Origin: Rhizocola hellebori | GTDB lineage: Bacteria > Actinomycetota > Actinomycetes > Mycobacteriales > Micromonosporaceae | Assembly (NCBI RefSeq): GCF_016862955.1 | Contig: NZ_BONY01000001.1 | Span: 1 to 64,000, forward strand | DNA length: 64,000 nucleotides | Direction of reading: 5' to 3' | Shown here: positions 1,752-28,431 of the stretch, one piece after another | How positions within the stretch are numbered: position 1 is the first letter of the stretch | Layout of the letters: each line of letters begins with the position of its first letter | Translations under genes and position numbers: made by a program | Notes under the pieces: generated by a model | Told to the model about the DNA's origin: nothing | Databases searched by the model: none | What the model saw: only the letters and a program-made list of their open reading frames with translations

Positions 1752-1836
1752 GTGCATCATCCTTTCCGCGAGGTTCTGCCAGCCCAGCAACCTCTGACTA
1801 GAGGCTCGCGGCCAGGCCACACCGCGGGGTGCCGTC

Positions 1837-2434: not shown

Positions 2435-2553
2435 CACGCCGGGATTAAGACGTGAGCCGAATTCGCGTCCGCAGCGCACAGCTTCCGGTCAAACATTCGC
2501 CCGGACAGTTTTCTCACAGCAGAGACGTCCGGACAGGTCTCGTAAGGAGATAC

Positions 2554-4245: not shown

Positions 4246-4258
4246 CAGTCTGCGAGCA

Positions 4259-4292
4259 GTCGTGGTGGGCGGCGTGCGCCCCCCACCACGAC
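4259..4292 (+). terminator. intercistronic hairpin after the binding-protein gene
   Basis: An 11-bp perfect inverted repeat (GTCGTGGTGGG at 4259-4269 with CCCACCACGAC at 4282-4292) has a 12-base loop and no U tract. It lies between the binding-protein stop and the first permease. Such hairpins commonly allow partial readthrough or stabilise the upstream mRNA, giving excess binding protein. Confidence 0.6.
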
Positions 4293-4335
4293 GCGTTCTC
4301 GATTACCACCCACTGCTCCTGACGAGGTTGGACAG

Positions 4336-5388: not shown

Positions 5389-5397
5389 GAGGACTTC

Positions 5398-6351: not shown

Positions 6352-6432
6352 TGGCGCCGACCTCCCGCCCACCGCGGCAGGCCGACCCCGTCCTCAGCGA
6401 CCCACAACTCCGCACACTGAAAGGGCCCGACC

Positions 6433-7050: not shown

Positions 7051-7105
7051 CGCTCTCCAGCCATGGACCTAAGTTGTCTCGGGGCGAGGCTCCGTCCTCT
7101 TCCCG

Positions 7106-7186
7106 CAGTCGCACTTCCTGTTCATCTACCCGTTCGTGCACCGGCACTTCGTGTCGGGAGTGATGCTCGGCTCCGTCAAGGGGTAA
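7106..7186 (+). pseudogene. C-terminal fragment of a second importer permease
   Basis: The frame ending in TAA at 7184-7186 reads FLFIYPFVHRHFVSGVMLGS followed by VKG. This mirrors the C-terminus of the LplC-type permease at 5398-6351 (FVYPFLQKHFVSG...GSVKG). There is no upstream coding sequence for the remaining part and no start signal, so it is the tail of a deleted permease gene. It points to a deletion between the YesL-like gene and the GH120 gene, or to a duplication later lost. Confidence 0.75.
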
Positions 7187-7290
7187 CCGTAGGCGCGGAC
7201 AGCCGTGCGGCAGTCCGTCGTTGGCCTTCGTGCGCTCAATCGCGGCCACCGCTGGGTGCTACTTCGACAGGGTCTTTGAAAGGAGTAGTT

Positions 7291-7356
7291 GTGGAGGTCC
7301 TGAAGGATTACGTCCAGCGGAACGGAGGCACTGTCGCCACGCTCACCCTCCGATAG
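7291..7356 (+). CDS. possible 21-residue small ORF upstream of GH120 gene
   Basis: GTG at 7291 follows a strong AAAGGAG ribosome binding site by five bases and opens a 21-codon frame ending at TAG 7354-7356. The product (VEVLKDYVQRNGG...TLTLR) has no recognised domain. It ends 25 bp before the GH120 start and could be a leader peptide, a remnant start of a lost gene, or chance. Only the ribosome binding site and the spacing support it. Confidence 0.35.
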   Translation: MEVLKDYVQRNGGTVATLTLR

Positions 7357-7381
7357 AAACCTTTAGAAATCGAGATCATCA

Positions 7382-9460
7382 ATGGCCAGCAGCGCTCTTA
7401 CTCTCCCCGTCCCCGAGGCTGAGGTTACCGGCGTGGAGCTGCACGTCGCGAAGTCTGGTTCCGACACCGCCGCCGGAACCGCGCGGGCCCCCCTGCTCAC
7501 GATCGGTGCTGCCGCGGCGCTGGCTCAGCCGGGGGACACCGTCGTCGTGCACGAAGGCGTGTACCGCGAGTGGGTGAACCCGCCGCGCGGCGGTACGGCT
7601 GCTGCGCCGATCACCTACCAGGCTGCGCTGGGCGCGGATGGCCTGTTCGAGAAGGTGACGATCTCGGGTGCTGAGGTGATCGCCGACTGGCATCCGCACG
7701 CCGGCTCGGCTGGCCGGGTCTGGGTGGCGACAGTGCCGAACTCCCTGTTCGGGTCGCGCAACCCCTACCTCGAGCGCATCGGTGGGGACTGGTTCTTCGA
7801 CCAGGTCAACACCTGGCACACGGGCGAGGTGTATCTCGACGGCAAGTCGTTGTACGAGTCGCTGACCATGGCCGGCGTCGAGCACCCCGAGGTCACCGTG
7901 GACTCGTTCGACCAGGCGGGCTCGCTGCTGACCTGGTACTGCGAGGTGGGCGACGACGTCACCACGATCTGGGCGAACTTCGGGGGCGCCGACCCGGCGG
8001 GGCACCAGATCGAGATCAACGCGCGCAAGTTCGTCTTCTGGCCCGCCGCCACGGGCATTGACTACATTACGGTGCGCGGCTTCACCTTGACGAAGGCCGC
8101 CACACAGTGGGCCCCGCCCACGGCGCTGCAAGAGGGCCTGATCGGCCCGCACTGGTCGAAGGGCTGGGTGATCGAGGACAACACGATCACCGACTCGAAG
8201 AACGTCGGCGTCTCGCTGGGCAAAGAGGCCAGCACCGGGCAGAACGAGGCCGCCGCAGGGCCGAAGGGCGCCAAGGGCGGCACACAGCGCGAGCGCGAGG
8301 TGATCCAGCGGGCGCTCGCCCTGCGCGGACCCGCCGCGGGCGAGCCGCACCCGTGGGACCGGGATCACGTCGGCTCCCACACGGTGCGCCGCAACACGAT
8401 CCGGGACTGCGAGCAGGCCGGCATCGTCGGGCACCTGGGGGCGGCGTTCTCGACCATCAGCGACAACCACATCTCCCGCATCCACGTGAAGCGTCAGTGG
8501 CACGGCGCCGAGGTGGCCGGCATCAAGCTGCATGCCGCGATCGACACCGTGATCAGCGGGAACACCATCCATCACACGCACCGTGCCCTGTGGCTCGACT
8601 GGCAGGCCCAGGGCACCCTGGTGCGGCGCAATGTCTTCTACGCCTCCACCGCCGAAGACTTCATGGTCGAGGTCTGCCACGGCCCGTACCTCGTGGACTC
8701 GAACCTGTTCCTGTCACCGTGGGCGGTCAAGGACATGTCCAGCGGCGGCGCCTACGTGCACAACTACATCGCCGGTCGCATCGCGAACTGTACCGAGCAC
8801 CAGCGGTACACCCCGTACCACCTCCCGCACTCCACGGCCGTCTACGGAGTCTCGAACATCCTCGGTGGAGACAACCGGTTCTACAACAACGTCTTCGTCG
8901 GCGACGGCGCGTGCGCCGAGCACACCGAACCGCAGTCGGAACCGACGCTCGCGAGCTTCTGGTCCGGCGCGATCGACATGGACGGCGTGCCCGGGCAGGC
9001 CACCTTCATGCCCACCCCGGTGGGCACCTCGCAGTACGACGCCTACCCGACGGCGCAGGAGTACCCGAACGAGCACGGCAGCGCGCTGGCCGGGCCACGC
9101 CTCCCGGTCTGGATCGAGGGCAACCTCTACGCGGAGGGCGCCGAGCCGTTCCGCGCGGAACCCACGGCCATCATCACAGGCGCATCACCCGTGCGAGTCG
9201 AGGTGCTCGACACCGCAGCCGGCACCCTCCGCGTCGAGGTGACCCACCCGGGCACCCACGTGGTCGCCCCGGTGACCAGCGAGCGCCTCGGGACCAGCTA
9301 CCAAGCCGAGATGGGCTATACCAACCCCGACGGGTCTGACCTGGACCTGAGCGCCGACCTCTGTGGGATCCTCCGAGGTGAGGTTGTGCCCGGGCCTTTC
9401 GCCGCATCGGCGCCCGTCACCCGGATACTCGCCGCGCCAGAACCGGCGGGCCGGCGCTAG
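7382..9460 (+). CDS. beta-xylosidase, GH120 (right-handed beta-helix)
   Basis: A 692-residue enzyme that closely follows the Thermoanaerobacterium GH120 beta-xylosidase sequence as I recall it: HVAKSGSDTAAGTARAP, GDTVVVHEGVYREWVNPPRG, GIDYITVRGF, QWAPPTALQEGLIGPHWSKG and LPHSTAVYG. The fold is a parallel beta-helix with added domains. By that alignment Asp406 (in LWLDWQAQG) is the nucleophile and Glu430 (in VEVCHGPYLVD) the acid/base. There is no signal peptide, so it would hydrolyse imported xylo-oligosaccharides in the cytoplasm. It is the last gene of the importer operon and is followed by a terminator-like hairpin. It is often annotated only as a beta-helix or pectate-lyase-like protein. 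Confidence 0.88.
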   Translation: MASSALTLPVPEAEVTGVELHVAKSGSDTAAGTARAPLLTIGAAAALAQPGDTVVVHEGVYREWVNPPRGGTAAAPITYQAALGADGLFEKVTISGAEVIADWHPHAGSAGRVWVATVPNSLFGSRNPYLERIGGDWFFDQVNTWHTGEVYLDGKSLYESLTMAGVEHPEVTVDSFDQAGSLLTWYCEVGDDVTTIWANFGGADPAGHQIEINARKFVFWPAATGIDYITVRGFTLTKAATQWAPPTALQEGLIGPHWSKGWVIEDNTITDSKNVGVSLGKEASTGQNEAAAGPKGAKGGTQREREVIQRALALRGPAAGEPHPWDRDHVGSHTVRRNTIRDCEQAGIVGHLGAAFSTISDNHISRIHVKRQWHGAEVAGIKLHAAIDTVISGNTIHHTHRALWLDWQAQGTLVRRNVFYASTAEDFMVEVCHGPYLVDSNLFLSPWAVKDMSSGGAYVHNYIAGRIANCTEHQRYTPYHLPHSTAVYGVSNILGGDNRFYNNVFVGDGACAEHTEPQSEPTLASFWSGAIDMDGVPGQATFMPTPVGTSQYDAYPTAQEYPNEHGSALAGPRLPVWIEGNLYAEGAEPFRAEPTAIITGASPVRVEVLDTAAGTLRVEVTHPGTHVVAPVTSERLGTSYQAEMGYTNPDGSDLDLSADLCGILRGEVVPGPFAASAPVTRILAAPEPAGRR

Positions 9461-13980: not shown

Positions 13981-14442
13981 ATGCGAGAGACGCGCACCTG
14001 CCTTGTCCTCAACCAGCTGCACGAATACCCGTTCCTGGACGAGCTGCCCGACCCGTGGCTCGATCTCCTCGCCGATCTGGGGCAGCCCGTCGAGTACCCA
14101 GCAAAGCATCGGATCTTCTCCGAAGGAGACCGCGCCGAGCACTTCTGGCTGATCGGCGACGGAGCGGTGACCCTCGATGTGCACGACCCGGAACGCGGCG
14201 ACATCGCCATCGAGACCATCGCCGCCGGTTCCGCGCTGGGCTGGTCCTGGATGTTCCCGCCCTATCGCTGGCATTTCGGCGCGGTCACCACCCGGGCCAC
14301 CCGCGCGCTGCGCTTCCGTGGCCGCGATGTCCTGCTGATGTGCCGGGCCAACCCGGTCGCCGGGATGGATCTGATGCAGCGCTTCGTGGGGGTGACCCTG
14401 GAACGCTTGCAGGCCACGCGTTTCCGCCTGCTCAACCGGTAA
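13981..14442 (+). CDS. cyclic-nucleotide-binding domain protein without DNA-binding domain
   Basis: A 153-residue protein made almost wholly of a Crp/Fnr-type cNMP-binding beta-barrel: FSEGDRAEHFWLIGDGAVTL, then ETIAAGSALGWSWMF and a C-terminal helix. The usual Crp helix-turn-helix is absent and the protein ends soon after the dimerisation-type helix, so it is not a typical transcription factor. It could be a stand-alone sensor or regulator of a partner protein. The phosphate-cassette arginine is not obvious, so nucleotide binding is uncertain. The SARP gene starts 17 bp downstream. Confidence 0.8.
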   Translation: MRETRTCLVLNQLHEYPFLDELPDPWLDLLADLGQPVEYPAKHRIFSEGDRAEHFWLIGDGAVTLDVHDPERGDIAIETIAAGSALGWSWMFPPYRWHFGAVTTRATRALRFRGRDVLLMCRANPVAGMDLMQRFVGVTLERLQATRFRLLNR

Positions 14443-14459
14443 CCAGCCTGCACTCATAC

Positions 14460-17396
14460 ATGTACCATTCGGAATCAATCGCCGAATGGGAGCCCGACTT
14501 GGCCGAGCCGATCGTTGTGCGCCTCCTGGGCCCGATCGAGGTGATCGGGCCGCAGGGCGCGGCGATTCTCGTCGGTGCGCGGCAGCGAAGCCTGGTGGCG
14601 TTGCTGGCGCTGCAACCGGGCAAGGCGATGGGTTCCGAGCGGATCATCGACGGGCTCTGGGGCGAAGAGGCGCCGCGCACCGCTTTGCGCACCCTGCAGA
14701 GCCATCTCGCCCGCATCCGCCATGCGCTGGCGCAGGCGGGTTTGCCCAACGTGCTCCTCAGCGGCCCGGCCGGACACGTGTTACAGCTGCCTGCGCTGGC
14801 CGTCGATGCACACGTCTTCGCGGACCGGGTGCGGCACGCTCGGGCGTGCCTGGCGGCCGGCGCGCTGCACGAAGCGGTGACCGCGTTTCAGGAGGGGCTT
14901 GGCCTGTGGCGTGGCGAAGCCTTCCAGGACGGTGAGGCCAACGGGCAAGCCAGCGCGGAAGTTGGTGTGCTGCATGACATGCGATCGTCGGCTGTGGAGG
15001 ACCTCGGCGACGCACGGCTCAGGCTGGGCGATCATGCCAGGGTCATCGGGGATCTGCAGCAGCTGCTGGCCGAGCACCCGTACCGGGAAAAGCCGGCCGG
15101 GCTGCTGATGCTGGCCCTTTACCGGGCGGGCCGCGGCGCCGAGGCGCTCACCATCTACCAGCGGCTGCGCGCCGACCTGGCCGAGGGGCTCGGGGCGGAC
15201 CCGGGTCCGGAGCTGCAGCAGCTGCACGCGGCGATCCTGCGCCAGGACCCGGCCCTGGAAATCAAGGCGGCGCAACCGATCAGCGGGCCGGCCGAGCTGC
15301 CGCCGCGGGTCGGCTATTTCACCGGGCGGGTCGACGAGTTCGCCGATCTGGACAAGCTCCTCGCGGTCAGGGAGGTCGAGACCGACCACAAGATCGTCCT
15401 CGTCTCCGGCGCGGCGGGGATGGGCAAATCCGCGCTCGCCGTGGAGTGGGCGCACCATGTGGCGCGCAGGTTTCCCGACGGCCAGCTCTTCGTCGATCTG
15501 CTCGGGCACGATCCACAAACGACATTGGGCCCGGCCGCTGTGGTCAGCCGCCTGCTGCGCGGGCTCGGGGTGCCGGCCGAACGCGTTCCGGACGAGCTCA
15601 GCGAGCAGGCCAGCCTCTACCGTTCCCTGATCCACGATCGCCGGTACCTGATCCTGCTCGACAATGCCCGCAGCGTCGAGCAGCTCCTGCCCGCTGTTCC
15701 AGCCACCCGGACCAGCCTGCTCGTCATCACCAGCCGCCAGGAGCTGTCGGCGCTCGCGGTAAGGCAACCGGTCCACTTCGTCCAGATGGGTGCCCTCGAC
15801 CGTGACACCGGGCTCAGCCTGCTGCGGCGCGCTGTCGACACGGAGCGGATAGAGGGCGACCGCGCGGCAGCCGCCGAGCTGGTCGACTTCTGCGGCGGGA
15901 TGCCGCTGGCGATCCGGATCACGGCGGCCAGGCTGGCCAGCCGCCCCGCCCTGACCATCGCCGATCTGGTCGGTGACATCAGGCTGCGCGAGCTCGACGC
16001 GCTCGCGGTGCCCGGCGACGCGGCGGGCATCCGGGCCGTCTTCGCCAGCGCCTACCAGAGCCTGAGCGCACCGGTCCGGCGTACCTTCGCGCTGCTGTCG
16101 CTGCATCCGGGCCCGTCGTTCTCGGTGCATCTCGCCGCGGCGGCCACCGGCGGCACCACGGCCCAGACCGAAGCCCATCTGGCCGAGCTGGCCGGGACGA
16201 GCCTGGTCATCCAGGAGGGCGACCGGTACAGGTTCCACGATCTCATCCGGCTCTACGCGGCCGAGTGCGCCAAGGCACAGGAGGCGGCAGCCGGCGCGCA
16301 AGCGCGGATCTGCGACTGGTACCTGGGTATAGCCCACGCCGCCAACCGTGTGCTCGATCCCGGGCGCAACCGGGTCGCCATCGCCGCCGAGCCCGCGCAG
16401 GTGCCGTTCGGGCTGACCCATCAGGAGACCATCGAGTTCCTCGAAGGCGAACAGCCGAGCCTGGGTCCGGTGGTGCGCTGGGCCGCCGCGACCGATCACA
16501 ACGTCGCCGCGTGGCAGCTCACCTACCTGGTCGCCGGTTTCTACGACTCCCGCGGCCGGCACGATCGCCTGGAGATGTGCGGCGCGGGCTTGCGGGCCGC
16601 GCAGGAGCTGGGCCACGCCGAGGCAGAGGTCTTGATGCGCAACCTTTACGCCGCGACCTGTGTCCAGATGAGACGGTTCACCGAGGCGCTGGAGCAGCTC
16701 GACGCGGCACTCAACCTGGCGCTTCGGTTGCCCGACGCGTGGTACAGGGCGACGACCTACACCAACAAAGCCGTGGCCAACACCTGGTTGCGGCGTTTCG
16801 ACGCGGCGCAGGACGCCTTCGAGCGTGCGCTGGAAATCCACGCCACCATCAGCAAGCCGCACGACATCGCGCTGTGCCTGAACAACCTCGGCGATGTGCA
16901 ACGGCGAGCGGGCAAGGGTGATGAGGCGCTGGCCTACCTGCAACGGGCGCTCGACATCGCCGCCACGTTGGCGATGCCCCGGCTGGAGGCGATCATCCGG
17001 CACAGCAAAGGCCAAGCGCACCAAGCACTCGGCGCGCACGCCCTGGCGCTCGCCGAGTTCGGCCAGGCGCTCGTGTTGCGACGCCAGATCGGGGATCGGC
17101 GCGGCGAGGCGAGCGCGCTTGAGGATATCGGCGCGATTCACTTTGAGCTGCAGCAGACCTCGCAGGCCATCGCCGCCTACCAGGAGGCGCTTGAGCTGAG
17201 CCGCCTGCTCGAAAACACCCATCTGGAAAGCGTGCTGCTGGACCGGATAGGAGAAGCGCTTCTGCAGGAGGGCGACCTGCCCGCTGCCGCGACAGCGCTT
17301 CAGCACAGTCTTCGATTGCGCCGTCAGATACCCGATCTCCACGAGGAGGAGCGCCTGCAGCGCAATCTGGACAAGCTCGGCCAACCGCGAGGCTAG
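14460..17396 (+). CDS. AfsR/SARP-type regulator with NB-ARC and TPR domains
   Basis: A 978-residue regulator. Domains in order: OmpR-like winged helix (VRLLGPIEVIGPQG... to GHVLQLP, residues about 18-110), bacterial transcriptional activator domain (about 115-260), NTPase with Walker A GAAGMGKSALAVEW from residue 317 and Walker B-like YLILLDNA, a winged linker, and TPR repeats from about 620 to the end. These proteins activate exported-enzyme or secondary-metabolite genes when the NTPase is engaged. The ATG at 14460 leaves the SARP domain intact; a long upstream extension overlaps the cNMP gene and is rejected. Its stop overlaps that of the converging gene (17393) by two bases. The target genes are unknown. 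Confidence 0.9.
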   Translation: MYHSESIAEWEPDLAEPIVVRLLGPIEVIGPQGAAILVGARQRSLVALLALQPGKAMGSERIIDGLWGEEAPRTALRTLQSHLARIRHALAQAGLPNVLLSGPAGHVLQLPALAVDAHVFADRVRHARACLAAGALHEAVTAFQEGLGLWRGEAFQDGEANGQASAEVGVLHDMRSSAVEDLGDARLRLGDHARVIGDLQQLLAEHPYREKPAGLLMLALYRAGRGAEALTIYQRLRADLAEGLGADPGPELQQLHAAILRQDPALEIKAAQPISGPAELPPRVGYFTGRVDEFADLDKLLAVREVETDHKIVLVSGAAGMGKSALAVEWAHHVARRFPDGQLFVDLLGHDPQTTLGPAAVVSRLLRGLGVPAERVPDELSEQASLYRSLIHDRRYLILLDNARSVEQLLPAVPATRTSLLVITSRQELSALAVRQPVHFVQMGALDRDTGLSLLRRAVDTERIEGDRAAAAELVDFCGGMPLAIRITAARLASRPALTIADLVGDIRLRELDALAVPGDAAGIRAVFASAYQSLSAPVRRTFALLSLHPGPSFSVHLAAAATGGTTAQTEAHLAELAGTSLVIQEGDRYRFHDLIRLYAAECAKAQEAAAGAQARICDWYLGIAHAANRVLDPGRNRVAIAAEPAQVPFGLTHQETIEFLEGEQPSLGPVVRWAAATDHNVAAWQLTYLVAGFYDSRGRHDRLEMCGAGLRAAQELGHAEAEVLMRNLYAATCVQMRRFTEALEQLDAALNLALRLPDAWYRATTYTNKAVANTWLRRFDAAQDAFERALEIHATISKPHDIALCLNNLGDVQRRAGKGDEALAYLQRALDIAATLAMPRLEAIIRHSKGQAHQALGAHALALAEFGQALVLRRQIGDRRGEASALEDIGAIHFELQQTSQAIAAYQEALELSRLLENTHLESVLLDRIGEALLQEGDLPAAATALQHSLRLRRQIPDLHEEERLQRNLDKLGQPRG

Positions 17397-18166
17397 GATC
17401 TGGCCAGGGTGTAGTTGCCGGAAGCGGCGTTGTTGACCACCACCACACCGAAGGTCCGTCCGGGTTCGGCCGACCCAACCGTGATGGCGACCGTCTCCGG
17501 GGTCAGGCCCGGATTGTTCGACTGGGCAATCGATTGGCTCCGGGACCGGGCCGCTGTGTTCGGCGCCGCGCCCAGCGAGTCGACGACCGCCAGATCGGCG
17601 TCCCCAGCGGTCAGCCGCAACGTGATGACGGCAGTGGTGCCGCTGGCCACATAGACGTCGCGGACGACGGCCGGGGTGTCCCGCAGGTTCAGCGACTCCG
17701 GGAATCCAACGCGCAGCGGCAGACCGCCGGTCGAATACTCGAGGGCGAACTGGCCGGTGACACTTCCCGCCCGCGTGACGGTGGCGTAGAGCGTACGGCT
17801 TGTTCCCGGCGGCGCTGTCCACGCCGCGTTGCCGTCCACCGCCACAAAGTCGACCGCCGCCCCGGATTGCGTGCTGGTCACCAGCGGCTCATCCTCACAC
17901 CGCCCAAGCGCCAGGTCGTAGTCGACGCCGGGCCCGCCCTTCACCGCGATCGCTGACCACTTCGGCTTTGCCACCTCCAGCGATAGCCGTAGCGGGTTCG
18001 CCGGGCCGATGTCGTCCCTCTTGTATGTCACGTTGGGAAGCATCAGCGGAGGCGGTGAGGCGATCGAGTAGCGGCACTCGACGTTGGCCAACGCCTGCGT
18101 CGGCAAACCCAGGCCCGCCACGGTTGTCGATACAGCAATCAGCAGAGCCAACACGTTTCGTTTCAT
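17393..18166 (-). CDS. exported protein repeating the C-terminal domain of the 26527-28431 product
   Basis: A 257-residue protein with a Sec signal peptide (MKRNVLALLIAVSTTVAGLG, cleavage near ALA-NV). The mature part has no named domain I can assign with certainty and resembles PPC-like beta-sandwiches. It aligns by eye with the last 220 residues of the first gene of this cluster: WSAIAVKG/WSVMAIRP, VDYDLALG/ADYDLKLF, PLVTSTQSGAAVDFVAVD/PLVTSAAGSAASDFIVID and VVVVNNAASGNYTLARS/AIVLINKLGSGAYTVTRKS. Its ATG overlaps the regulator's TGA (ATGA), so it is translationally coupled. It may bind the same partner or carbohydrate as its larger relative (inference). Confidence 0.8.
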   Translation of the reverse strand: MKRNVLALLIAVSTTVAGLGLPTQALANVECRYSIASPPPLMLPNVTYKRDDIGPANPLRLSLEVAKPKWSAIAVKGGPGVDYDLALGRCEDEPLVTSTQSGAAVDFVAVDGNAAWTAPPGTSRTLYATVTRAGSVTGQFALEYSTGGLPLRVGFPESLNLRDTPAVVRDVYVASGTTAVITLRLTAGDADLAVVDSLGAAPNTAARSRSQSIAQSNNPGLTPETVAITVGSAEPGRTFGVVVVNNAASGNYTLARS

Positions 18167-19446
18167 GACCTCTCCTCGATCCGGTCCAGCAGGTGTTCGA
18201 TCGCTTTGCGGAGCAACTTGTCGCGAAGGTGCCCGAAGCCGAGCACCAGAGCCGGCGGCTCGCTGACGCCGTAGCAGCCGAGCGTTTCGACCCTGATTCC
18301 GTTGTCGTGCAACCGGTTGGCGATCGCTTCGGCGTCCGGGTGTCGCATCAGGACGGTCCCCGCCTCGGCCGGGGCGAAGCGCGCCGCGGGCAGCAGAGCC
18401 CGTTTTGACGCGTAGAGATGGGTCAGCCGGTGCATCTGGCGCACCATGGTTCCGTCGTTGAGCAGCCGGGCGACGGCGAGCTGGGTGAGATCGGGCGGCT
18501 GCAGCCCGCGCTCGTGCACGAGCTGGCCGATCCGTGCCGCCAAGTCCTTGGGCACCACCGCATAGCCGAGCTTGAGGGTGGGCGTCAGCACCTCGCCGAA
18601 GCCGCCGACAAGGACCGTCTGCGCTCCCGGCTCCAGCAGCCGCGGCAACCCGGCCACCTCCGGCCTGAAGACGGCATCGCGATTGAGCGAGATGAGCGTC
18701 CCGCCGCAGCGCGCCCACGCCAGCGCCTCAGCCCGCCGCTGCGCGGACATCACCATGCCCAGCGGACGGTTGCCGTCCGGGCACACCACCGCTATCGGGA
18801 CGTCGCTGGGAAAGCCGTTCAGGGGGTCGGTCGCCAGCCGCAGCAACGCCGGCGGCATGGGCCGCTCCATCGCCACCCGGTGCCCGGCCATCGCTTCCAG
18901 CACCAGCCGCAGCCCGGCCACGGTGCCCGAGGTGATCACCACCTCGTGCTCGGCGGCCACGATCCCGCGGGTCTGGGCAAGGTGATCGGCTATCGCCCGG
19001 CGCAGCTCCGGCATCCCGAGCGCGGGCGGGTCGGCCGCTGCCGGCACCTCGTAGCTGGCATGCCGCCAGGCAGCCCGCCAAGCCCGGATCGGAAAGGCCT
19101 CGCCGCAGAGCTGGCCGGGCCTGAAATCAAATATCCATCGCCTGGTACCAGAGACAGCCCCCCGCGGCCGAGAAGCCACCGGCTCCTCGGGCCGCACGAA
19201 GGTCCCCGACCCGGGCCGGACCGTCAGGTAACCGCGGGAGTGCAGTATGTCGTAGGCCTCGTCGACCACTCCCCGGGAAACCCCGAGCAGGTCGGCGAGA
19301 GTTCGGGTGGACGGGATCCGTGCTCCCCGCCGCGCTGTGCCAGTCTCGACCGCGGCTGCGATCTGGTCGGCGATCTGCTCGTGCAGTGGCTGTGCCGCTT
19401 CCCGTCGCAGGGCGATCGGGAAGGTGAGGATCTCCCGATAACGCAT
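18163..19446 (-). CDS. MocR-like regulator (GntR helix-turn-helix plus aminotransferase fold) lacking the PLP lysine
   Basis: A 427-residue protein. Residues 18-85 are a GntR winged helix (PLHEQIADQIAAAVETG, IPSTRTLADLLGVSRG, YLTVRPGSGTFV). A linker and a fold-type I aminotransferase-like domain follow. In MocR proteins the PLP-binding lysine sits in FSK before a TLxPxLRLGY stretch. Here that segment reads FGEVLTPTLKLGYAVVP, with Glu285 in place of Lys. The PLP-contact segments (HQxPxG and DxxY types) are also altered (GNRPLG, NRDAVF). It therefore probably cannot form a PLP aldimine and may sense something else. It is coupled to the exported protein downstream, and direct repeats upstream suggest autoregulation. 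Confidence 0.85.
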   Translation of the reverse strand: MRYREILTFPIALRREAAQPLHEQIADQIAAAVETGTARRGARIPSTRTLADLLGVSRGVVDEAYDILHSRGYLTVRPGSGTFVRPEEPVASRPRGAVSGTRRWIFDFRPGQLCGEAFPIRAWRAAWRHASYEVPAAADPPALGMPELRRAIADHLAQTRGIVAAEHEVVITSGTVAGLRLVLEAMAGHRVAMERPMPPALLRLATDPLNGFPSDVPIAVVCPDGNRPLGMVMSAQRRAEALAWARCGGTLISLNRDAVFRPEVAGLPRLLEPGAQTVLVGGFGEVLTPTLKLGYAVVPKDLAARIGQLVHERGLQPPDLTQLAVARLLNDGTMVRQMHRLTHLYASKRALLPAARFAPAEAGTVLMRHPDAEAIANRLHDNGIRVETLGCYGVSEPPALVLGFGHLRDKLLRKAIEHLLDRIEERS

Positions 19447-19494
19447 GCCTTCTTTGTACGGCCCACGCGTTGTGGAGATGTTGTGGAGCCGCTG
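19447..19494 (-). promoter_or_regulatory. regulator promoter with direct-repeat operator
   Basis: On the plus strand GTTGTGGAG occurs at 19469-19477 and again at 19480-19488, an 11-bp phased direct repeat. On the minus strand it sits upstream of a TACAAA element (19457-19452) and a GAAGG ribosome binding site. MocR regulators often bind direct repeats, so this is a plausible self-operator. Confidence 0.5.
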
Positions 19495-22400
19495 TCACGA
19501 CAGTGCGATGACGTCGGTGAAGACGTGGCGCTCCCCGCCGGGCCAGCGCTCGCTTTCCTGGATGACCAGGCGAAACTCTGACGAGTGGGGTGCCGGGAGG
19601 CTGACCTTCCCGGTCCACATTGTCTTATTTCCGTCTTTGACCCAGGCCACGCCGGGGGTCAGCTGGGTGGTGCCGGCCGCCGACCAGCCCAGCTCCGCCG
19701 AGTCGATGCCAGGGTCGCGGCGCTCCACGGTCACCACCACGTTGCCGCCTCTCATTGAGCTGCTGTAGGTACCCAGATAGGAATGACCGACAACGGTCAC
19801 GTCGACCTCGGTGGGGCTCGGATAGGCAAGGCTGACCCAGCGGTCGGGTGCGAGCTGAGCGAAGTCGGCCAGCCGCACCGGCGACATCTCTATCCCGGCC
19901 ATCGAGTGAGGCTGGTATCGGCACAGGGCCAGCCGGATGAACGGGAAGTAGGCGCTGCCGGAGGCGAATTCGATGTCGCTGTAGTAAAGCTGACGCTGCC
20001 CGTCCCAGAGGGGCGTGAGCTGAACGACCCGCACCTGCTTGCTCGCCGGGGCCATCCCCGGCAGCTCAGCCAGCACCACCGGCCCGGACACGACCGGGTT
20101 GGACAGCACGTGGAAGGGTTGGGGAACTGGGGCCGGCAGCGAGCCGTCGGCGACCGCCGGATCGCCGGCCCAGGCGGTCACGTAGGGACGCAGGTGTTCG
20201 AGGATGCCCGGGGCGTTGGCGAAGACGACACCGAGCTTCTCGCCTTCGCCGCTGGAGTGCCAAGGCGGCGCGTAGTAGATCCGCAAGCCGTTGCCGCTGC
20301 GCCGGGAGAGCACCGCGCCCGGGAGATCGGGATCGCTCGATGGGGTCTGTGTCTGCCAGCCGAAGGTGGGCAGCACCTGCACCGGGACCGGCGCGGCCGG
20401 CCGGGAACGGGAGTTCACCCAGGTGGAGAGGGTGTCGCTGCGCGTGATGCTGGGCAGGAAGTCGACGTTGACCTGGCCCGAGATCGGGCTGCCCGGCTTG
20501 CGAGCGAGGGTGCCGGTCTCGTAGTTCACGACGTAGTCCTGATTCCTCACGAAGGTCGTGCCGCCATTGGGCGCAGTCACGATCTCCGAGTCTTCGGCGA
20601 TGCCCCGCGAGTTGACGACGATCGGGGTCTCGCCGACCGGCGTCACCTCTTTGGCGGCTCGCTCGGTAAAGTATTCGGCGAAGCGGCTCTTGGCCCGGGT
20701 CCGGTAGGCGACCCAGTGCGCCTTGGTGTCGTGGAAGTCCGAGCGCACTCCCCCACCGGCCAATGTGGACAGATCCAGCTCTCCCTCGGGCTGTGCCGGA
20801 TCGACCGGCACCTCCCCCAGATCGGCGCTCTTCGCTGTGATCTGGGTTTCCCACTTGGTGCCTGTCCACACGTCGGCGATGTCCGACCACGACGCCGTCA
20901 TGTCCAGCGACACAGTGCTTTTGCGGCTGCACGCCACCTTCCAGGCAAGCGTCACGTGGTTCTGGCCTTGCTGGTGAACGATGTCGGCGCTGCCCAAGCT
21001 CGCGGGCGCCAGCAGCGGCTGCCGCACCGCGCAGATCAGGCGCAGCAACCGTTTCGGGGTGAGCATGGCGATCAGACCAGCCTTTGCCCAGTCCACGTAA
21101 TAGCCGTAGGGGTCCGTCGCGCTCTTCTTGTGTTGAGGATTGCCCGCGGTGATTTCCTTGAACCAGCGCCAGATCTGCAGGTTGTCCAGATGGTCGGCGG
21201 ACAGGCAAGAACTAAGCGGGAACTCGACCACGTCACCCTTGCCGAGCTTGAGCAGCAGCCCGTTCACGCCAGGCAGCGGCTCCGGAAGGCCGCTGCCCTC
21301 GATCAGTCTGATTTGGACACCCTTGACGGTTTGCCAGTTCTCCGAGTCCGCGGCGTAACCGAAGTCGATGGTGTGGAACCCGCTGAGCGACACGCCACGG
21401 GCGTAGACGTCCGGAAGCCATGGCACGTCGAGGTTGGTGTCGCTGGGATAGGTCTGCTGCGACAGCACCCCATTGGCGCGCTGCGCCAGGATCGGGTAGA
21501 TATTGGGTTTGAAACCGGTGTCGGTGTCGAACATGCCCAGCTGCTCGGCGAAAAGCTGAGCTGCCTTGGGCGGCAACAGATGCCGCGCGCAGACCTGGGC
21601 GGGGTCGGGCGCGCTGTCGTATTCGGTGCGGATGACCAGATCGGTGATGGTCTCCCCCGGGGTCGGTGGCGCGCACATCACCACCTCCGGCGCTGGGACA
21701 GGCTCAGCCCGCGCATACCGGCCCACGCCTGTGGCGTAGGTGAAATCCGACGAGGTGTCGCCGCGCTGGAAGGGCACCCCCGCGCCGCCGAGGTAGCTGG
21801 CGAGCGCCCGGAGCCGGTAGTCGCGCCCGAATCTGAGCACCGGCAGCCCTTGCGACGCGGGCCGGGTGGTGACTTTGAGCTGCGGGTCGGTCGGCTTCTG
21901 CGGACCCGGGTCGGGATCGCCGAGCGGCTGTCCCGGCTCCAGCAGGGACAGCCCGGGGCGCGGCGCGGCCAGGTTCTCGCCGTGCCAGCGCGCGAGATAC
22001 TCCGCCAGATACAGGTCGTCGGTGCCGTCGTTGACGCGCTGGGTCGTGGCCGCGGTGACCGCGCCCTCTTCACGCAACGTGCTGTCCTTCGCCGGGACAT
22101 ACGCGCCTGGTGTGTCGCCCAGGGCCAGGAAGTGGTACATGACATCGCGTTCGCAGAGCGAGAACCAGCGCTGGGCGGCCACGTCATAGGCCTGCCAGCG
22201 CAGCCCGTGCAGCAGCGAGGCGGCGTTGAGCACCACGTTGCCGCCGCCGACGATGGTGGCGTTGTCCTGCTTGGCCTGGCCGAATTTGGTGTTGTAGAGC
22301 CAGGCGTTGCCCTTTCTCGCCACGGCCAGCCCGGCCGAACGCAGTGACGGCAGGAACTGCTCGTCGCCGGTCTGCACGTGTTTCATGTTGTCGGCGAACT

Positions 22401-23340
22401 GGCGCAGCTTGATGGCCGCGCCGTCGACGTCGATCGTCACCACGGAGAAAGCCGCGCCCGATAGGGCCAGCCGGTTGTCGGCAATGTCCCCGGCCGCCTT
22501 CGGCCAGAACGAGCCCGTGCCGAAGGTGGCGGCCGTGGTCGGGGTGAGATGACCGGCGCTGGGCGGCACCACTTTCACGGTGGTGTCTCCGGGCAGGAGG
22601 CTTCCCACCGGTACCAAGAAATCCAGAACCAGACCAAGGTGCCGTTGCAGAATCGGGTACTCCATGAGCAGCGACACCACCTGGTGGAAGTCAAGCGTGT
22701 CGTCGGCGAAGGCCTTCTGCGGCACGGCTTGCGCGGCTGCGGGCGTCCAGTGGAAGCGAAGCACCTGAAGGAAATCGGTCAGCGGCTGCGGCGCGGCGGG
22801 CGGCAAAGCCCTCTTGCCGCCGGCATAGAGCCCGTTGACCGTGGCGAGAATCGTCCGCTCGCTGTTGCGCGGCAGCTGCAGATCGCGCACCAGGCTTCGA
22901 TTCTCCGACCACGCCCGCCCGTGCGGGCCTTGGTCTTCGGGCCGCTCATTGGTCATGTCCGAGTAGAGCTTGCGGATCGCCTCGACGACATTGCCCACCG
23001 GGTACGACCGGATCAGCTTGCCGGTCAGGTCCGCCACCTTGAACGGCCGCACCAGCATGCTTCCCGGAAACAAGGCAGGCCAAAGATTTGGCTTCAACAC
23101 CGTTTTGTCGGGTACCAGATTCGCGTGCGTAACCCCGCCAACCTGAAGGGACAGGGCGAAGGCGGGGGCCGCCACATACGCCGTCCACTGTGGCCAGTTG
23201 GCGTAAACGCCAAGGGTTTGATTGGTTTCGGGAAGGCTCGACAGCCGCGGTGAGACCACGCAGCGCACCTTCAGCTTGCCGGTCGCGGTGTCGATGCCGT
23301 TGGGGACCGCGGTCCACATCACGGTCTGCACGATGGCCAT
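19495..23340 (-). CDS. 1,281-residue protein of unknown function
   Basis: A very large protein that I cannot assign to a named family. It begins MAIVQTVMWTAVPNGIDTAT and continues as a mostly beta-rich, Trp- and Pro-rich chain without signal peptide, membrane segment, P-loop or obvious catalytic motif. Features seen: a clear start with CAGGAG seven bases upstream, even codon use throughout, and a C-terminus with repeated beta-strand pattern (SLPAPHSSEFRLVIQESERW). It begins 27 bp after the 1,047-residue gene, so the two are probably co-translated and may form one complex. An N-terminal pattern of WTAxPNG followed by VSPRL looks familiar from other large bacterial proteins, but I cannot name the family. 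Its cellular location is unclear. Confidence 0.75.
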   Translation of the reverse strand: MAIVQTVMWTAVPNGIDTATGKLKVRCVVSPRLSSLPETNQTLGVYANWPQWTAYVAAPAFALSLQVGGVTHANLVPDKTVLKPNLWPALFPGSMLVRPFKVADLTGKLIRSYPVGNVVEAIRKLYSDMTNERPEDQGPHGRAWSENRSLVRDLQLPRNSERTILATVNGLYAGGKRALPPAAPQPLTDFLQVLRFHWTPAAAQAVPQKAFADDTLDFHQVVSLLMEYPILQRHLGLVLDFLVPVGSLLPGDTTVKVVPPSAGHLTPTTAATFGTGSFWPKAAGDIADNRLALSGAAFSVVTIDVDGAAIKLRQFADNMKHVQTGDEQFLPSLRSAGLAVARKGNAWLYNTKFGQAKQDNATIVGGGNVVLNAASLLHGLRWQAYDVAAQRWFSLCERDVMYHFLALGDTPGAYVPAKDSTLREEGAVTAATTQRVNDGTDDLYLAEYLARWHGENLAAPRPGLSLLEPGQPLGDPDPGPQKPTDPQLKVTTRPASQGLPVLRFGRDYRLRALASYLGGAGVPFQRGDTSSDFTYATGVGRYARAEPVPAPEVVMCAPPTPGETITDLVIRTEYDSAPDPAQVCARHLLPPKAAQLFAEQLGMFDTDTGFKPNIYPILAQRANGVLSQQTYPSDTNLDVPWLPDVYARGVSLSGFHTIDFGYAADSENWQTVKGVQIRLIEGSGLPEPLPGVNGLLLKLGKGDVVEFPLSSCLSADHLDNLQIWRWFKEITAGNPQHKKSATDPYGYYVDWAKAGLIAMLTPKRLLRLICAVRQPLLAPASLGSADIVHQQGQNHVTLAWKVACSRKSTVSLDMTASWSDIADVWTGTKWETQITAKSADLGEVPVDPAQPEGELDLSTLAGGGVRSDFHDTKAHWVAYRTRAKSRFAEYFTERAAKEVTPVGETPIVVNSRGIAEDSEIVTAPNGGTTFVRNQDYVVNYETGTLARKPGSPISGQVNVDFLPSITRSDTLSTWVNSRSRPAAPVPVQVLPTFGWQTQTPSSDPDLPGAVLSRRSGNGLRIYYAPPWHSSGEGEKLGVVFANAPGILEHLRPYVTAWAGDPAVADGSLPAPVPQPFHVLSNPVVSGPVVLAELPGMAPASKQVRVVQLTPLWDGQRQLYYSDIEFASGSAYFPFIRLALCRYQPHSMAGIEMSPVRLADFAQLAPDRWVSLAYPSPTEVDVTVVGHSYLGTYSSSMRGGNVVVTVERRDPGIDSAELGWSAAGTTQLTPGVAWVKDGNKTMWTGKVSLPAPHSSEFRLVIQESERWPGGERHVFTDVIALS

Positions 23341-23367
23341 TGGTCTGCTCCTGAGGCGAAAATGTCG

Positions 23368-26300
23368 TTAGAAGGCTGCGGTGTCATACAGGTCGGCATA
23401 CTGCGCCCACTGGGTGAGCGAGGTCATTTCGGCGAAGGTCTTGGGGGTGCTGCTCATGAGCGCCATGCCTTGGTTGTCGCCACCACCTGCGAAGGTCTTC
23501 TTGATAGGCCCGAGGGTCACCGAGGCGCTGAAGAACAGCACCTCGATCTCCACGGTCACCTTCGCCTCGCCGTAGCAGGACTCCGGGCTTTCGATATAGG
23601 TGAAGGCCAAATAGAACTCGATCGCCATCGAGACGATGCCGAGGATGTCCAGTTCCCCGTTGAGGCGCAGGTAGCCGGTGAGCCGGGCGCCGTCGTCGTT
23701 GCCGTCCCCGTCGTTGTCCCCGATGGCCAGGTAGATGCCGGCCATCGCGCTGATGCTGCCGCTGGCCACCCCGATGTCCAGGGCCAGCTTGGCCCCGAAT
23801 TCGAGGGTCATCTCGAACAGCTCGAAGTCATCGAGCCCGAGCGTGACGGCGACCGAGCCGCCGCCGCCGAAACACATCACGGTCAGCACGAAGGGGCGGT
23901 TACGGTCGGCGAAGTTGAAGCGCATCCGCATCGGGCGGCCGTCGAAGAACAGGTCCACCCGAGCGCCGAAGCTGATGTTTTCCAGCAGCAGCACGCCGCA
24001 CGGCACCGGCGGCAGGGTCAGGTTGTAGCCGGCCGCCACCCCGGACGGGCTGACATTGACGTAGCCGCCGTTGGCCGGTGCTTCACTGATGGACAGCCCT
24101 TGGGCCCCGCTGCCACCCATGAATTTGCGAAGCACGTTGACGAATTCGAGTGCCCCGACGAACACAACGTCATCGATGCTCACTTGAATGTCGGGTTTGC
24201 TGCCGGGCTTGGAAACGAAGCCGAACTTGTCGAACAGAATGTTCATCACCTTCAGCGGCCCGACCGCGGCCACGGTGAAGTTGGTCAGCTCGCCCGCCAC
24301 CTGTCCGGCTTCGGCCCGCAGCATGAGCTTCGCGGGAGTGCCGTTCTTGTTGTCCAGGAACAGGTCCGGGATGCTGACCACGCCGGTCTCCCAGACGAGC
24401 GCGGTGTGCGGGCCGTCCGGTTCCTGGGTCGTCACCAGGCGCGGGATGGGGCTGAGCGCGGCGGTGGACATCGCCCCCGGGCCGGGAAAGTCGACCTCGG
24501 CAAGAATGTCGGTGAGGCTGATGCTGCCGAGCACCTTGGCACTGGTGACGTCGAAGAAGTCCAGCGGCTTGAATTTGGTCGGCACTATCGTGCCGATGTT
24601 CGGCGCGTCGATCGGTCCGGTGCTCGCCGAAAGCGCGCTGATCGCCATGTTCGGGGTGGCCACCCCGCCGGAAGCATTGGCGGCATAGGAGAGGCTCACC
24701 GGCGTCTTCAGCGCGGCGAAGACACGTCCCGGGTTCACCGCGCCGGAGTCGCCGTCGGAAATCCACTGTGGATGCAGCTTGATCTCCTGCGGCGATCCGG
24801 CCGCACCCCCACGGATGCGGTCCACCGCGTCGAGCCGCGCGGAGGCGGCCTTCAGGTACGGGGTGAAGTCCCAGGGGGCATGCTGTCCGGGCAGTGGCAC
24901 GGCGGCCTCGAACACGTTCACGCCGAACTCGAACACCGTCAAGGGATACGTGGTCTCGCCCGGTTTACCTCCCCCGAACTTCGCCAGCGCCACCCGCTGG
25001 CCGCCCAGATCGGCCTGGCGTCGTGCTTGCAGCGGATCGCTTTCGTAGTAGTCCTTCAGGTAGTCCACGGTCGGTGACGCGCCGAAGGTTTCTGACACGT
25101 AGATCAGCGGCATCTGGAAACGGGTCTTCCGGCCCTCGTAGTCCTCGGCTTCCAGATCCCAGAGAAAGTCCGCCCAGTTGCTGGGCGCGCCCACCCGGGG
25201 CCAGAAGGCCTCCTTGCCGAAGTAGCCGCTGTTGTCGGGATACGGGACCTTGGTTTCCGGCTCGGCCCCGGCTTCGTAGGGCGCGAGATTCGGCGTCACC
25301 GGCGTCAGCACCCGGATCTTCTTGAACGGCAGGTCCCGCAAACCGTTGGGTGCGAAGGGAATGTCCCCGTCCTGGTAGGTGCGCACCCGCTCGCGTGGCA
25401 CGATGAACTTCCGCTGGCGCAGCACCGCCATCGGTTTGCCGTTGACGATTTCGAACTTGCGCTCGGAGATCTTTATCAGGTCGACCCGGTGTCCGATTCC
25501 CCAGAGCCGCCCGGCATCGACGGTCATCACGAAATGGTCCCGGCCCATCGTGGCCAGGTGCACCCACTGCTTGAGGTCCACGCCGTCCGGGCGCACGTTC
25601 CAGATCTTGGATGCCTTCAGCCATGCGCCCAGCGAGCTGAGCGCAAGCTGGTCCACGTCGACCGGTTGCGGGACATAGTTCTGCCCGCCTGAGGACTGGT
25701 CCCATCGTGCGGTCAGCTTGACGAGCTTGTTGCGCTCAACCGGGGTCAGCGACGTGACACCCGGAGGGGTCGGGTCAATCGCGTTCGGGACATCCGGGTC
25801 AGGCGTCCAGACCACCCGCACCTTCGCGTCGTTGTCGAGCCTGGCGTGCCAAAGGGGATGACGATCCGCCGATCCCGTCGTCACCTCCATCGCGTGGCTC
25901 CACCCGGCGGTCTGACCCGGCGACAGCACCACCTTCCACGGCACCTCGATCGAGGTCTCGGTCGGCAGCGGCGCACGCACCGTCGCGTTGCCGATCGCGT
26001 GCGGGACGAGACTGGGCTGGAAATCCTTCCACGCCATGAGGGTGCCGAAGCTGTAGAGGATCGGCGTCGCCGGCGCCTTGAACGCCAGCCTGCTCGCACC
26101 GGCCAGCATCGACGCGATGGGAGCGGCGGTGACCGGCTCCGGCGGAGTCTCCTGATAGGCGTGCTCGGCCAGATGCTGCGGCCCGAAGTCGACGACGATG
26201 AAGGCGTCGATGGCGGGATCCACTTTGACCAGCCGTGCCGTTTGCCCATCGCCGGGGCCGGACTGGCCCTTCTTGAGCAGCTTGAGGTTGTAGAACTCAA

Positions 26301-26511
26301 GCCGCACCGAAAGCTGATCGGCGCGCCGGTAAATAGCTTTGGTGAAGGTGGGTGTCGGGCGCACGGTGAGCTTCGGGTTTCCGGCTACCGGCTCTGCGTC
26401 CCAGGGCAGAACGGTCTGCGCGTCCTCCAGCCCCAGCACGAGGCCGACGGCCCCGGCGAGCGCGCCCGCCCGCAGGATGGCCCGGCGGCTGACCTTCGGC
26501 TGCTCTCCCAT
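23368..26511 (-). CDS. 1,047-residue Tat-exported protein of unknown function
   Basis: The N-terminus MGEQPKVSRRAILRAGALAG carries a twin-arginine motif (SRRAIL) followed by a hydrophobic stretch, so it is exported folded or membrane-anchored. The rest is long and beta-rich. The C-terminal 250 residues alternate hydrophobic and polar residues (LFFDGRPMRMRFNF, VAVTLGLDDFELFEMTLEFG, AKLALDIGVASGS), with an acidic calcium-type loop GDNDGDGNDDGA between strands. No catalytic motif is recognised. It is 15 bp from the upstream gene's stop and 27 bp from the 1,281-residue gene's start. A structural or binding role in a surface complex is possible (inference only). Confidence 0.75.
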   Translation of the reverse strand: MGEQPKVSRRAILRAGALAGAVGLVLGLEDAQTVLPWDAEPVAGNPKLTVRPTPTFTKAIYRRADQLSVRLEFYNLKLLKKGQSGPGDGQTARLVKVDPAIDAFIVVDFGPQHLAEHAYQETPPEPVTAAPIASMLAGASRLAFKAPATPILYSFGTLMAWKDFQPSLVPHAIGNATVRAPLPTETSIEVPWKVVLSPGQTAGWSHAMEVTTGSADRHPLWHARLDNDAKVRVVWTPDPDVPNAIDPTPPGVTSLTPVERNKLVKLTARWDQSSGGQNYVPQPVDVDQLALSSLGAWLKASKIWNVRPDGVDLKQWVHLATMGRDHFVMTVDAGRLWGIGHRVDLIKISERKFEIVNGKPMAVLRQRKFIVPRERVRTYQDGDIPFAPNGLRDLPFKKIRVLTPVTPNLAPYEAGAEPETKVPYPDNSGYFGKEAFWPRVGAPSNWADFLWDLEAEDYEGRKTRFQMPLIYVSETFGASPTVDYLKDYYESDPLQARRQADLGGQRVALAKFGGGKPGETTYPLTVFEFGVNVFEAAVPLPGQHAPWDFTPYLKAASARLDAVDRIRGGAAGSPQEIKLHPQWISDGDSGAVNPGRVFAALKTPVSLSYAANASGGVATPNMAISALSASTGPIDAPNIGTIVPTKFKPLDFFDVTSAKVLGSISLTDILAEVDFPGPGAMSTAALSPIPRLVTTQEPDGPHTALVWETGVVSIPDLFLDNKNGTPAKLMLRAEAGQVAGELTNFTVAAVGPLKVMNILFDKFGFVSKPGSKPDIQVSIDDVVFVGALEFVNVLRKFMGGSGAQGLSISEAPANGGYVNVSPSGVAAGYNLTLPPVPCGVLLLENISFGARVDLFFDGRPMRMRFNFADRNRPFVLTVMCFGGGGSVAVTLGLDDFELFEMTLEFGAKLALDIGVASGSISAMAGIYLAIGDNDGDGNDDGARLTGYLRLNGELDILGIVSMAIEFYLAFTYIESPESCYGEAKVTVEIEVLFFSASVTLGPIKKTFAGGGDNQGMALMSSTPKTFAEMTSLTQWAQYADLYDTAAF

Positions 26512-26526
26512 GGTCGCTACCTCTTC

Positions 26527-28431
26527 CTAAGACTTGCGGGTCACGGTGTAGGCGCCGCTACCCAACTTGTTGATCAGGACGATCGCGCAGTAGCCGGGCG
26601 CGATGGCGGGGGCGGTCCACAGCAGCGTTTCCGTCCCGCCGGCGAGCGCGGGAGCCGTCGCGGAGGCGGCGCTGCGGCTGCGTACCCAGCTCGACGCTGA
26701 GGTGGTGGAGCAGAAGAGGAAAAGCTCGGCGTCCTGCCCCGCAGCCTGGGTGACCTCGATCTTCACCTGGGCGCTGGCGGCGACCGTGGTCTCCCAGATC
26801 GAGACCGGGACGGCCGAACTGCTCACCGACTGTCCGATCGCGACATTGCTGGAAGCCTGCACGAACCTGGCGTCGTACTGGCCGGACCCGGTGCTCGCGG
26901 AATAGCGGTAAACCTGCGGATAGTAGGTGCCCAATGGGTGCTTGCTCAGATTGGAGTCGATGACGATGAAGTCGGAAGCGGCGCTGCCGGCGGCACTGGT
27001 CACCAGCGGGCTGCCGGCCATGGCCTCGTCGGCGAAGAGCTTCAGGTCGTAGTCGGCTGTCGGCGCGGCGGCCTGCGGCGGCCGGATCGCCATCACCGAC
27101 CAGTAGCGGGTCGTCGTCGAGTACCGGAAGTTGTGTGGTGGCAACGGAGTGCGCCGGACGACGGCCGCGCCGTTGCTCAGCGGGTCGCGCAACCCATAGT
27201 CGATGGTGTTCTGGTAGAGGGTGGCCAAAGCGTTGTCGCCGCTGAATCCGAGGTCGGCCAGAGCCCGATAGCGCTGACCGGGGGTCCACGAGTGAGTGAG
27301 CACCTTGCTCCACAGCGGAGTCGGGCCTTGGGCGAGCCGGTCCCACGGCGTCTCATTCGTGGCATCCGACAGATCGATCAGCGCGCCGGCCACCCGCGCT
27401 TCGACCGCGTCGCCGTAGCCCCAGCCGGGGGTCTCCCAGCCCGGCGTCTCCAGATTCTCGTGGAAGACCTGCGCACCGATCTGCCAGTCGAGCACCGGAT
27501 CCGCGTAGACCTGAGTGGCGACCCAGTCGGCGAACCCCTCCGCCCACGCGCAGGACGCCGAGGTCACCTTGCCGATCAAGGTGCGATCGCCACACGCCGA
27601 CGGGTCCGGGTAGTCGTCCTCGAAAATGTCATCCATGACGGCCTTGGCTGCCTCTCGTACGACCGAGTCGCGCCACTTGAAGTCCACGGCCGCCAGATGG
27701 ACACGGTTGAGCGCGGAGTCGTAGAAGCCTCGCGTCGACGAGTCCGGCCGCCACTCGATGGCCACCTGGCGACATTTGCTGTAGTCGCTGGGCTGCTTGT
27801 CCGCGCTGTCCCAGCAGTCGTTGGCCTGTTGCGCTCCGGTCCACGCCCACAGCCGATCCACCGCGTTGAAGATTTGCAGCGCGCCGGCCTGCGGCGTGCC
27901 CGCGCCGGGCTTGGTCGCTCCATAGTGGACGGTTGTCCCCGCTGCCACGTTGGGCCACAAGGCAAGGCTGAACTGATAGGCCTGGACGTCGTCCACCCGC
28001 CAGAAGCCGTTCTCGGTGACCACGCGAACGTAGATGTCCAGGCCATTGTTGGCGCTGTCATCCAAGTCGTCTGTGGCCGAGCAGAGCAGGAACGCCCCAG
28101 AGGCCGCGGTCAGATTGGCGTCGAGCAGATCGTCGGCGGAGCTGCTGTCCTGATCCCAGAGCTGCACCTGCAGGTTCCCAAGCGCTACACCGGCCGCGCC
28201 ACCGACCTCGTCGTGCGACAGCGTCCCATCGGCACACGTCTGCGCAACCATGGGCGCAACGGCTTGCTGGGCCACCACGCTGACCGGAAGCGTCGCGGGC
28301 CGGTGAACATGGTGCGCCGGGCCGGATCCCTCACCCAGGTCGCTGTTTTCCGTGGCCGTGGTCTGCGGCGTGACCGGCGTCGAGGTGACCGCCAGGCCCA
28401 ACACCACCAGCAGGATCAGTCGTCGAAGCAT
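26527..28431 (-). CDS. exported protein with degenerate metalloprotease motif and PPC-like C-terminal domain
   Basis: A 634-residue protein with a Sec signal (MLRRLILLVVLGLAVTSTP). The ATG at 28431 is chosen because the longer frame puts extra residues before the signal. Residues about 60-190 are a beta-rich domain. Residues about 240-400 look like a zincin-type peptidase: VVREAAKAVMDDIFED aligns with a helix that should carry HExxH but reads REAAK (residues 259-263), followed by CAWAEGFADWVATQVY and ALIDLSDATNETPWD. Loss of both zinc histidines suggests an inactive homologue. The last 220 residues form the domain shared with the 17393-18166 product. First gene of the five-gene cluster. Confidence 0.8.
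   Translation of the reverse strand: MLRRLILLVVLGLAVTSTPVTPQTTATENSDLGEGSGPAHHVHRPATLPVSVVAQQAVAPMVAQTCADGTLSHDEVGGAAGVALGNLQVQLWDQDSSSADDLLDANLTAASGAFLLCSATDDLDDSANNGLDIYVRVVTENGFWRVDDVQAYQFSLALWPNVAAGTTVHYGATKPGAGTPQAGALQIFNAVDRLWAWTGAQQANDCWDSADKQPSDYSKCRQVAIEWRPDSSTRGFYDSALNRVHLAAVDFKWRDSVVREAAKAVMDDIFEDDYPDPSACGDRTLIGKVTSASCAWAEGFADWVATQVYADPVLDWQIGAQVFHENLETPGWETPGWGYGDAVEARVAGALIDLSDATNETPWDRLAQGPTPLWSKVLTHSWTPGQRYRALADLGFSGDNALATLYQNTIDYGLRDPLSNGAAVVRRTPLPPHNFRYSTTTRYWSVMAIRPPQAAAPTADYDLKLFADEAMAGSPLVTSAAGSAASDFIVIDSNLSKHPLGTYYPQVYRYSASTGSGQYDARFVQASSNVAIGQSVSSSAVPVSIWETTVAASAQVKIEVTQAAGQDAELFLFCSTTSASSWVRSRSAASATAPALAGGTETLLWTAPAIAPGYCAIVLINKLGSGAYTVTRKS

Follow-up and report, generated by a model that had tools for sequence, protein, structure and literature searches.

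Two co-inherited families of giant proteins with a strict gene order and an export signal on the first partner only, found within a five-gene cluster of Rhizocola hellebori

The first 64,000 nucleotides of contig NZ_BONY01000001.1 of Rhizocola hellebori (the window, meaning the whole stretch of DNA that was analysed, from a genome of 10.8 Mb) contain a compact array of five genes, two of which encode proteins of more than 1,000 residues. On the strength of the DNA alone, it had been suggested that these genes specify a single cell-surface assembly with a dedicated regulator, an assembly that could be placed in no known system. The locus therefore raises the question of whether the five genes belong together or whether the array is built around a smaller unit.

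We confirmed all five reading frames on the minus strand (G1 to G5 in transcription order; Table 1) and reproduced the coordinates and spacings of the sequence-only reading, with intergenic gaps of 15 bp (G1-G2), 27 bp (G2-G3) and 48 bp (G3-G4) and a 4-bp ATGA overlap between G4 and G5. A scan for promoters and terminators gave no signal exceeding that of shuffled sequences. The G2 and G3 open reading frames are not chance frames, because full-length relatives exist in many genomes. The five-gene order, in contrast, was found in no other genome. Our best reading is that the cluster consists of a conserved two-gene core, G2-G3, with local additions.

Table 1. Window coordinates of the genes of the cluster and of features within them
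Feature	Position	Strand	Remarks
G1, exported pseudo-metalloprotease, 634 aa	26527..28431	-	Sec-like leader MLRRLILLVVLGLAVTSTPVTPQ; relatives with intact HExxH
G1 degenerate zinc site REAAK (HExxH in relatives)	27643..27657	-	Alignment
G1 C-terminal domain, common with G5	26536..27147	-	BLASTP
G2, first giant, 1,047 aa	23368..26511	-	Tat leader MGEQPKVSRRAILRAGALAGAVGLVLG and beta-rich core; relatives upstream of G3 at 73 loci
G2 twin-arginine leader, residues ~1-35	26407..26511	-	SRRAIL and hydrophobic stretch
G3, second giant, 1,281 aa	19495..23340	-	No leader; predicted Fn3-like beta-sandwich domains in a relative
G4, GntR/MocR-like regulator without PLP lysine, 427 aa	18163..19446	-	
G4 Glu285 codon at the PLP Schiff-base lysine position	18592..18594	-	Alignment with canonical MocRs of the same genome
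G5, small exported protein	17393..18166	-	Sec-like leader; ATGA overlap with G4
G5 domain common with the G1 C terminus	17399..18004	-	BLASTP

Searches of Pfam, NCBIfam, PHROGs and PADLOC gave no significant match to either giant, nor did profile searches of PDB sequences made with 5 or with 60+ sequences, and no curated Pfam or NCBIfam domain rose above its cutoff in G2, in G3 or in their long relatives. The ~400-residue N-terminal extension carried by the long forms of G2 had no significant match in the PDB profile search or in NCBIfam. We rejected a role of the giants in anti-phage defence on the basis that PADLOC returned nothing for either protein, and homology between G2 and G3 was tested and likewise rejected. 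The literature that we searched turned up hitchhiker precedents and reviews of MocR regulators and held no description of the G2-G3 pair.

A single-sequence scan of genome contigs with G2 gave no match. A profile of G3, when run against 85,000 species genomes, identified 339 confirmed stretches, the best 80 of which came from Actinomycetota, Chloroflexota, Armatimonadota, Acidobacteriota, Aminicenantota, Pseudomonadota, Myxococcota, Bacteroidota, Balneolota, Bacillota, Cyanobacteriota and Thermodesulfobacteriota. The two-gene module is present in at least ten phyla and is also plasmid borne in Streptomyces, Rhizobium and Diaphorobacter, where the sole annotation is "hypothetical protein." In Catelliglobosispora and Catellatospora (loci L012/L067 and L060), G3 is split into two adjacent open reading frames of ~292 and ~1,070 to 1,111 aa; the split point is similar in these two Micromonosporaceae genera, and both parts are retained.

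The pairing of the two giants was strict. At every locus with enough upstream sequence (73/73), G2 immediately preceded G3 in the same orientation, with a median gap of 14 bp and a gap of 60 bp or less at 60 of the 73 loci. The loci without G2 were all contig edges, with the contig end within 423 bp. Among 101 genomes, the window's own included, G3 was present in 5 and G2 in the same 5, adjacent to it. When a five-sequence G2 alignment was used to search 296 genomes of the window's phylum, G2 was found in 8, all of which also carried G3; a ninth G3 match was borderline at 18 bits. Distances on the G2-core and G3 trees correlated at 0.87, compared with a maximum of 0.31 in 1,000 permutations, an agreement that is owed partly to linkage and shared ancestry. 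The branching tracks phyla poorly, with phylum labels needing 20 changes where the minimum is 11. Joint transfer of the two genes would fit this picture, which is not proof of transfer. The giants make a stronger case than could be seen from the sequence alone, whereas the five-gene order would be refuted by the criterion set in the sequence-only reading, namely conservation in some other genome.

AlphaFold2 gave confident, mainly beta models of the giants taken singly, from alignments of 62 sequences for G2 and 66 for G3. The G2 model (mean pLDDT, 80.5; pTM, 0.68) has a C-terminal run of strands of 12 to 18 residues. The G3 fold, modelled on a 1,147-aa relative from locus L015 (mean pLDDT, 84.6; pTM, 0.69), contains helical insertions and matches Fn3 domains locally. 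Foldseek searches of PDB and viral structures gave no global match to either model (TM of ≤0.13 by query length), and the partial matches were generic: G2 drew outer-membrane barrels, G3 drew Fn3 proteins, and pieces of tail fibres also appeared. No known family or system could be matched to the giants at the sequence or fold level, as had been supposed, and the profile searches returned no well-described family such as a phage tail protein or an adhesin. We claim no new transport principle.

Some of these weak likenesses deserve comment. Weak, partial fold matches of G2 to tail proteins, together with a single G3 insert that very weakly matched a tail tube model (E, 0.06) and a tail PHROG (E, 0.33), speak faintly for the giants being parts of a phage tail or of a tail-derived injection device. 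That reading is close to refuted: the giants have no relative in phage records or viral contigs, genes for a tail, sheath, baseplate or capsid were not noticed among the neighbours examined, no sheath, tube or baseplate genes recurred in the cluster lists or in the neighbours described for 84 loci, and Tat signals, such as that of G2, are not known as a trait of tail proteins. For G3, Foldseek also listed alpha-2-macroglobulins and complement C3/C5, and C1, S1, S8, A4, M28 and M23 proteases are found among the hand-picked neighbours of the pair, G1 itself being a pseudo-protease. It is nevertheless highly improbable that G3 is a macroglobulin-like protease trap acting with nearby proteases. 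Its likeness to macroglobulins and to Fn3-containing extracellular proteins is a local one between beta-sandwich domains; the fold matches are those of generic multi-Fn3 proteins, with a TM of about 0.1 over the whole protein and no sequence-profile match, and the neighbours were hand selected, so that enrichment of proteases is not established. The thioester motif C[GLMA]EQ was present in 0/66 G3 sequences, which is not final, since some alpha-2-macroglobulin members lack the motif.

The sequence-only reading had spoken of large exported proteins. For G2, this was correct, and its Tat leader was confirmed. G3, however, has no export signal, and export of a giant can therefore be read from the sequence for G2 only. 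We flagged Tat signals among the relatives as RRx[hydrophobic] with an uncharged hydrophobic stretch; 44 of 70 G2 proteins were flagged and 43 were kept after reading (the flag on L070 was false, while those on L059 and L091 were correct but the motif was earlier than flagged), such that ~27 of the 70 have no Tat signal. The G2 protein of L078 has a Tat lipobox. In contrast to G2, none of 79 true N termini of G3 was Tat- or Sec-like, the single flag lying upstream of the real start. G2 itself occurs as a bare core, as a Tat leader plus core and as an N-terminal extension of ~340 to 490 residues plus core, with or without Tat. The extension of the L015 protein matches the lectin-type repeat DUF346 weakly, and an insertion in the G3 protein of L062 has a weak propeller-like match. 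Since so many G2 proteins are without Tat, the module is not invariably tied to export. Mapped onto the G3 tree, the partner's Tat state switches five or more times and G3 never gains a signal, and the likely compartment of the pair therefore follows the G2 leader alone. G2 and G3 are two undescribed, co-inherited families with a strict order and asymmetric export signals.

From the families, their pairing, their order and the signal asymmetry, we infer a physical complex, its co-export, its location and its function. We consider it on balance probable that G2 and G3 form an obligate, beta-rich complex whose members are often exported together by the Tat pathway, with G3 riding on G2. The two proteins would be subunits of one mainly beta-structured complex of about 2,300 residues, and their two genes would make up a self-contained module that passes between unrelated bacteria. 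Folding and assembly would take place in the cytoplasm, after which both proteins would leave via Tat, the leaderless G3 riding on the signal-bearing G2 as in Tat hitchhiker export; because the signal is only ever on the first giant, export of the two as a single folded assembly is probable. Once across the membrane, the complex would probably have a binding or structural role, either attached to the envelope or secreted, and would sometimes carry additional modules, N-terminal or inserted, with a weak resemblance to lectins or propellers. The pseudo-protease G1 and the regulator/exported-protein pair G4-G5 have joined the module in this genome.

HybOC and PaoABC are precedents for Tat co-export (PMC4273604). 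As proposed for G2-G3, these hitchhikers (HybO-HybC and PaoABC) comprise one subunit with a Tat signal and one or more signal-less partners, encoded by adjacent genes. The known hitchhikers are, however, cofactor-containing redox enzymes (PaoABC is 135 kDa), whereas G2-G3 shows no redox domain and amounts to ~250 kDa; moreover, the Tat signal is missing from about 40% of G2 relatives, and the co-export of G2-G3 is predicted from the genes. The size of Tat cargo is usually quoted as 20 to 70 angstrom (PMC4273604). A pair of ~250 kDa would be a very large Tat cargo, and this is a real objection to co-export.

The size of the pair also suits an alternative, in which G2 and G3 are functional partners without Tat export of G3, which would either act in the cytoplasm (for example, as a chaperone of G2 or a factor in its assembly) or reach G2 by another route. 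The absence of a signal from every G3 N terminus is also in keeping with this, as is the fact that the 27 signal-less G2 proteins imply that the pair can work without export. We regard this alternative as rather doubtful: G3 is larger than G2 and equally conserved, its Fn3-like beta-sandwich domains are typical of extracellular or structural proteins and not of a dedicated chaperone, and a propeller-like insertion such as that of L062 would be unusual for one. As for the co-exported complex that we prefer, a bolder form of it can be put forward tentatively, at rather less than even confidence: a horizontally mobile, pan-bacterial, extracytoplasmic beta assembly of two giants from unrecorded families that would pass through Tat as a folded cargo of ~250 kDa, its compartment being set solely by exchange of the first subunit's leader or N-terminal module.

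The three remaining genes individually matched much of their earlier description. Residues 429 to 632 of G1 and 54 to 255 of G5 are 29% identical over 214 columns (E = 1e-12), bearing out a common domain of ~210 residues in the first and last products. G1 was also rightly called an exported pseudo-protease, in that REAAK stands where relatives of the same family have HEISH, HEIGH, HEWGH, HEFGH or HEAGH; a G1 paralogue in the same genome has RELAN at this position. Over the catalytic region and the C-terminal domain, G1 is alignable with the HExxH metalloproteases of this bacterial family, which has the motif CAWxEG, and it differs from them in the zinc motif. The domain that G1 shares with G5 is also found as a stand-alone exported protein in other genomes, and G1-type proteins are present in genomes without giants. 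G1 and G5 are likely to be lineage-specific accessories.

G4 was likewise confirmed as a PLP-less MocR-like protein. It has the same GntR winged-helix head (PF00392; E, 4.7e-15) and recognisably aminotransferase-like body as the MocR/GabR/PdxR regulators, but in comparison with canonical MocRs of its own genome, the Schiff-base lysine (SK) has become GE and DDYDxEFR has become SLNRDAVFR. With both the PLP lysine and the cofactor-binding aspartate motif substituted, G4 would not be expected to perform PLP chemistry. In genome G019, a G4-G5-like pair (L120, 4710-6739; 57% and 48% identical to G4 and G5, respectively) overlaps in the same manner, is located on a contig other than that of the giants and adjoins a pectate-lyase-like gene. 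In two Lentzea species (L033, 14613-16010; L054, 14511-15926), a PLP-less MocR that is 43 to 45% identical to G4 adjoins the giant pair, on the opposite strand, which hints at a recurring regulatory link; members of this subfamily also occur unlinked to giants. A GntR gene near the pair at L076 was considered as a further MocR and rejected as an ordinary GntR. G4 is likely to be a local regulator.

A single dedicated cell-surface assembly made by all five genes, with its own regulator, would account for the tight operon-like array, for the domain common to G1 and G5 and for the Lentzea regulators. We nonetheless judge it unlikely, given that the array was seen in no other genome, that G1-type proteins do without giants, that the G4-G5 pair of G019 stands apart from them, that the Lentzea regulator is on the opposite strand and that giants at other loci lie beside unrelated genes. 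G1 and G4-G5 are separate modules that have been joined to G2-G3 in this genome. What stands of the proposed cell-surface assembly is a plausible surface or extracytoplasmic role for the giants; the dedicated five-gene system is not supported.

Elsewhere, no general third partner gene emerged. In seven other actinobacteria, the giant pair is followed by a different exported protein of ~400 aa, and another protein recurs at four loci of Balneolota and Kapabacteria (L080, L085, L095 and L075), where a protein of 616 to 664 aa (cluster c20), outer-membrane-like by eye, is encoded near the pair; the idea of a general partner was rejected. Genes for TatA-like small membrane proteins adjoin the pair at L031 (4859-5062), L055 (13892-14077) and L046, which speaks for the co-export reading. 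At L014, L015 and L074, a Trypsin_2-type protein (cluster c23) with no visible leader is encoded next to pairs with a Tat-less G2.

In the window, secreted polysaccharide-degradation genes flank the cluster (747-9460 and 33412-56265). The flanking genes encode a LacI regulator, ABC permeases, GH120, GH12-CBM2 with Fn3 and GH43-CBM6, as well as a DUF1996 protein with F5/8C and a Golvesin-domain FAD protein. These surroundings fit an extracytoplasmic role of the giants, but they are no test of that role. Two BTAD/NB-ARC/TPR (AfsR-like) regulators, each of >1,000 aa, are encoded at 14055-17396 and 57705-60773, and one of them is convergent with G5, with a 4-bp overlap at the G5 end.

The finding means that a gene pair of 2,300 residues, distributed over at least ten phyla and carried by cultured strains and plasmids, has been missing from the main protein-family libraries. 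G2-G3 offers a testable case for the limits on the size and complexity of Tat cargo, and its relatives form a natural series of one partner pair with and without a Tat leader. Should the complex prove to be a surface or secreted machine, it would be of a kind not previously recorded that many environmental bacteria possess.
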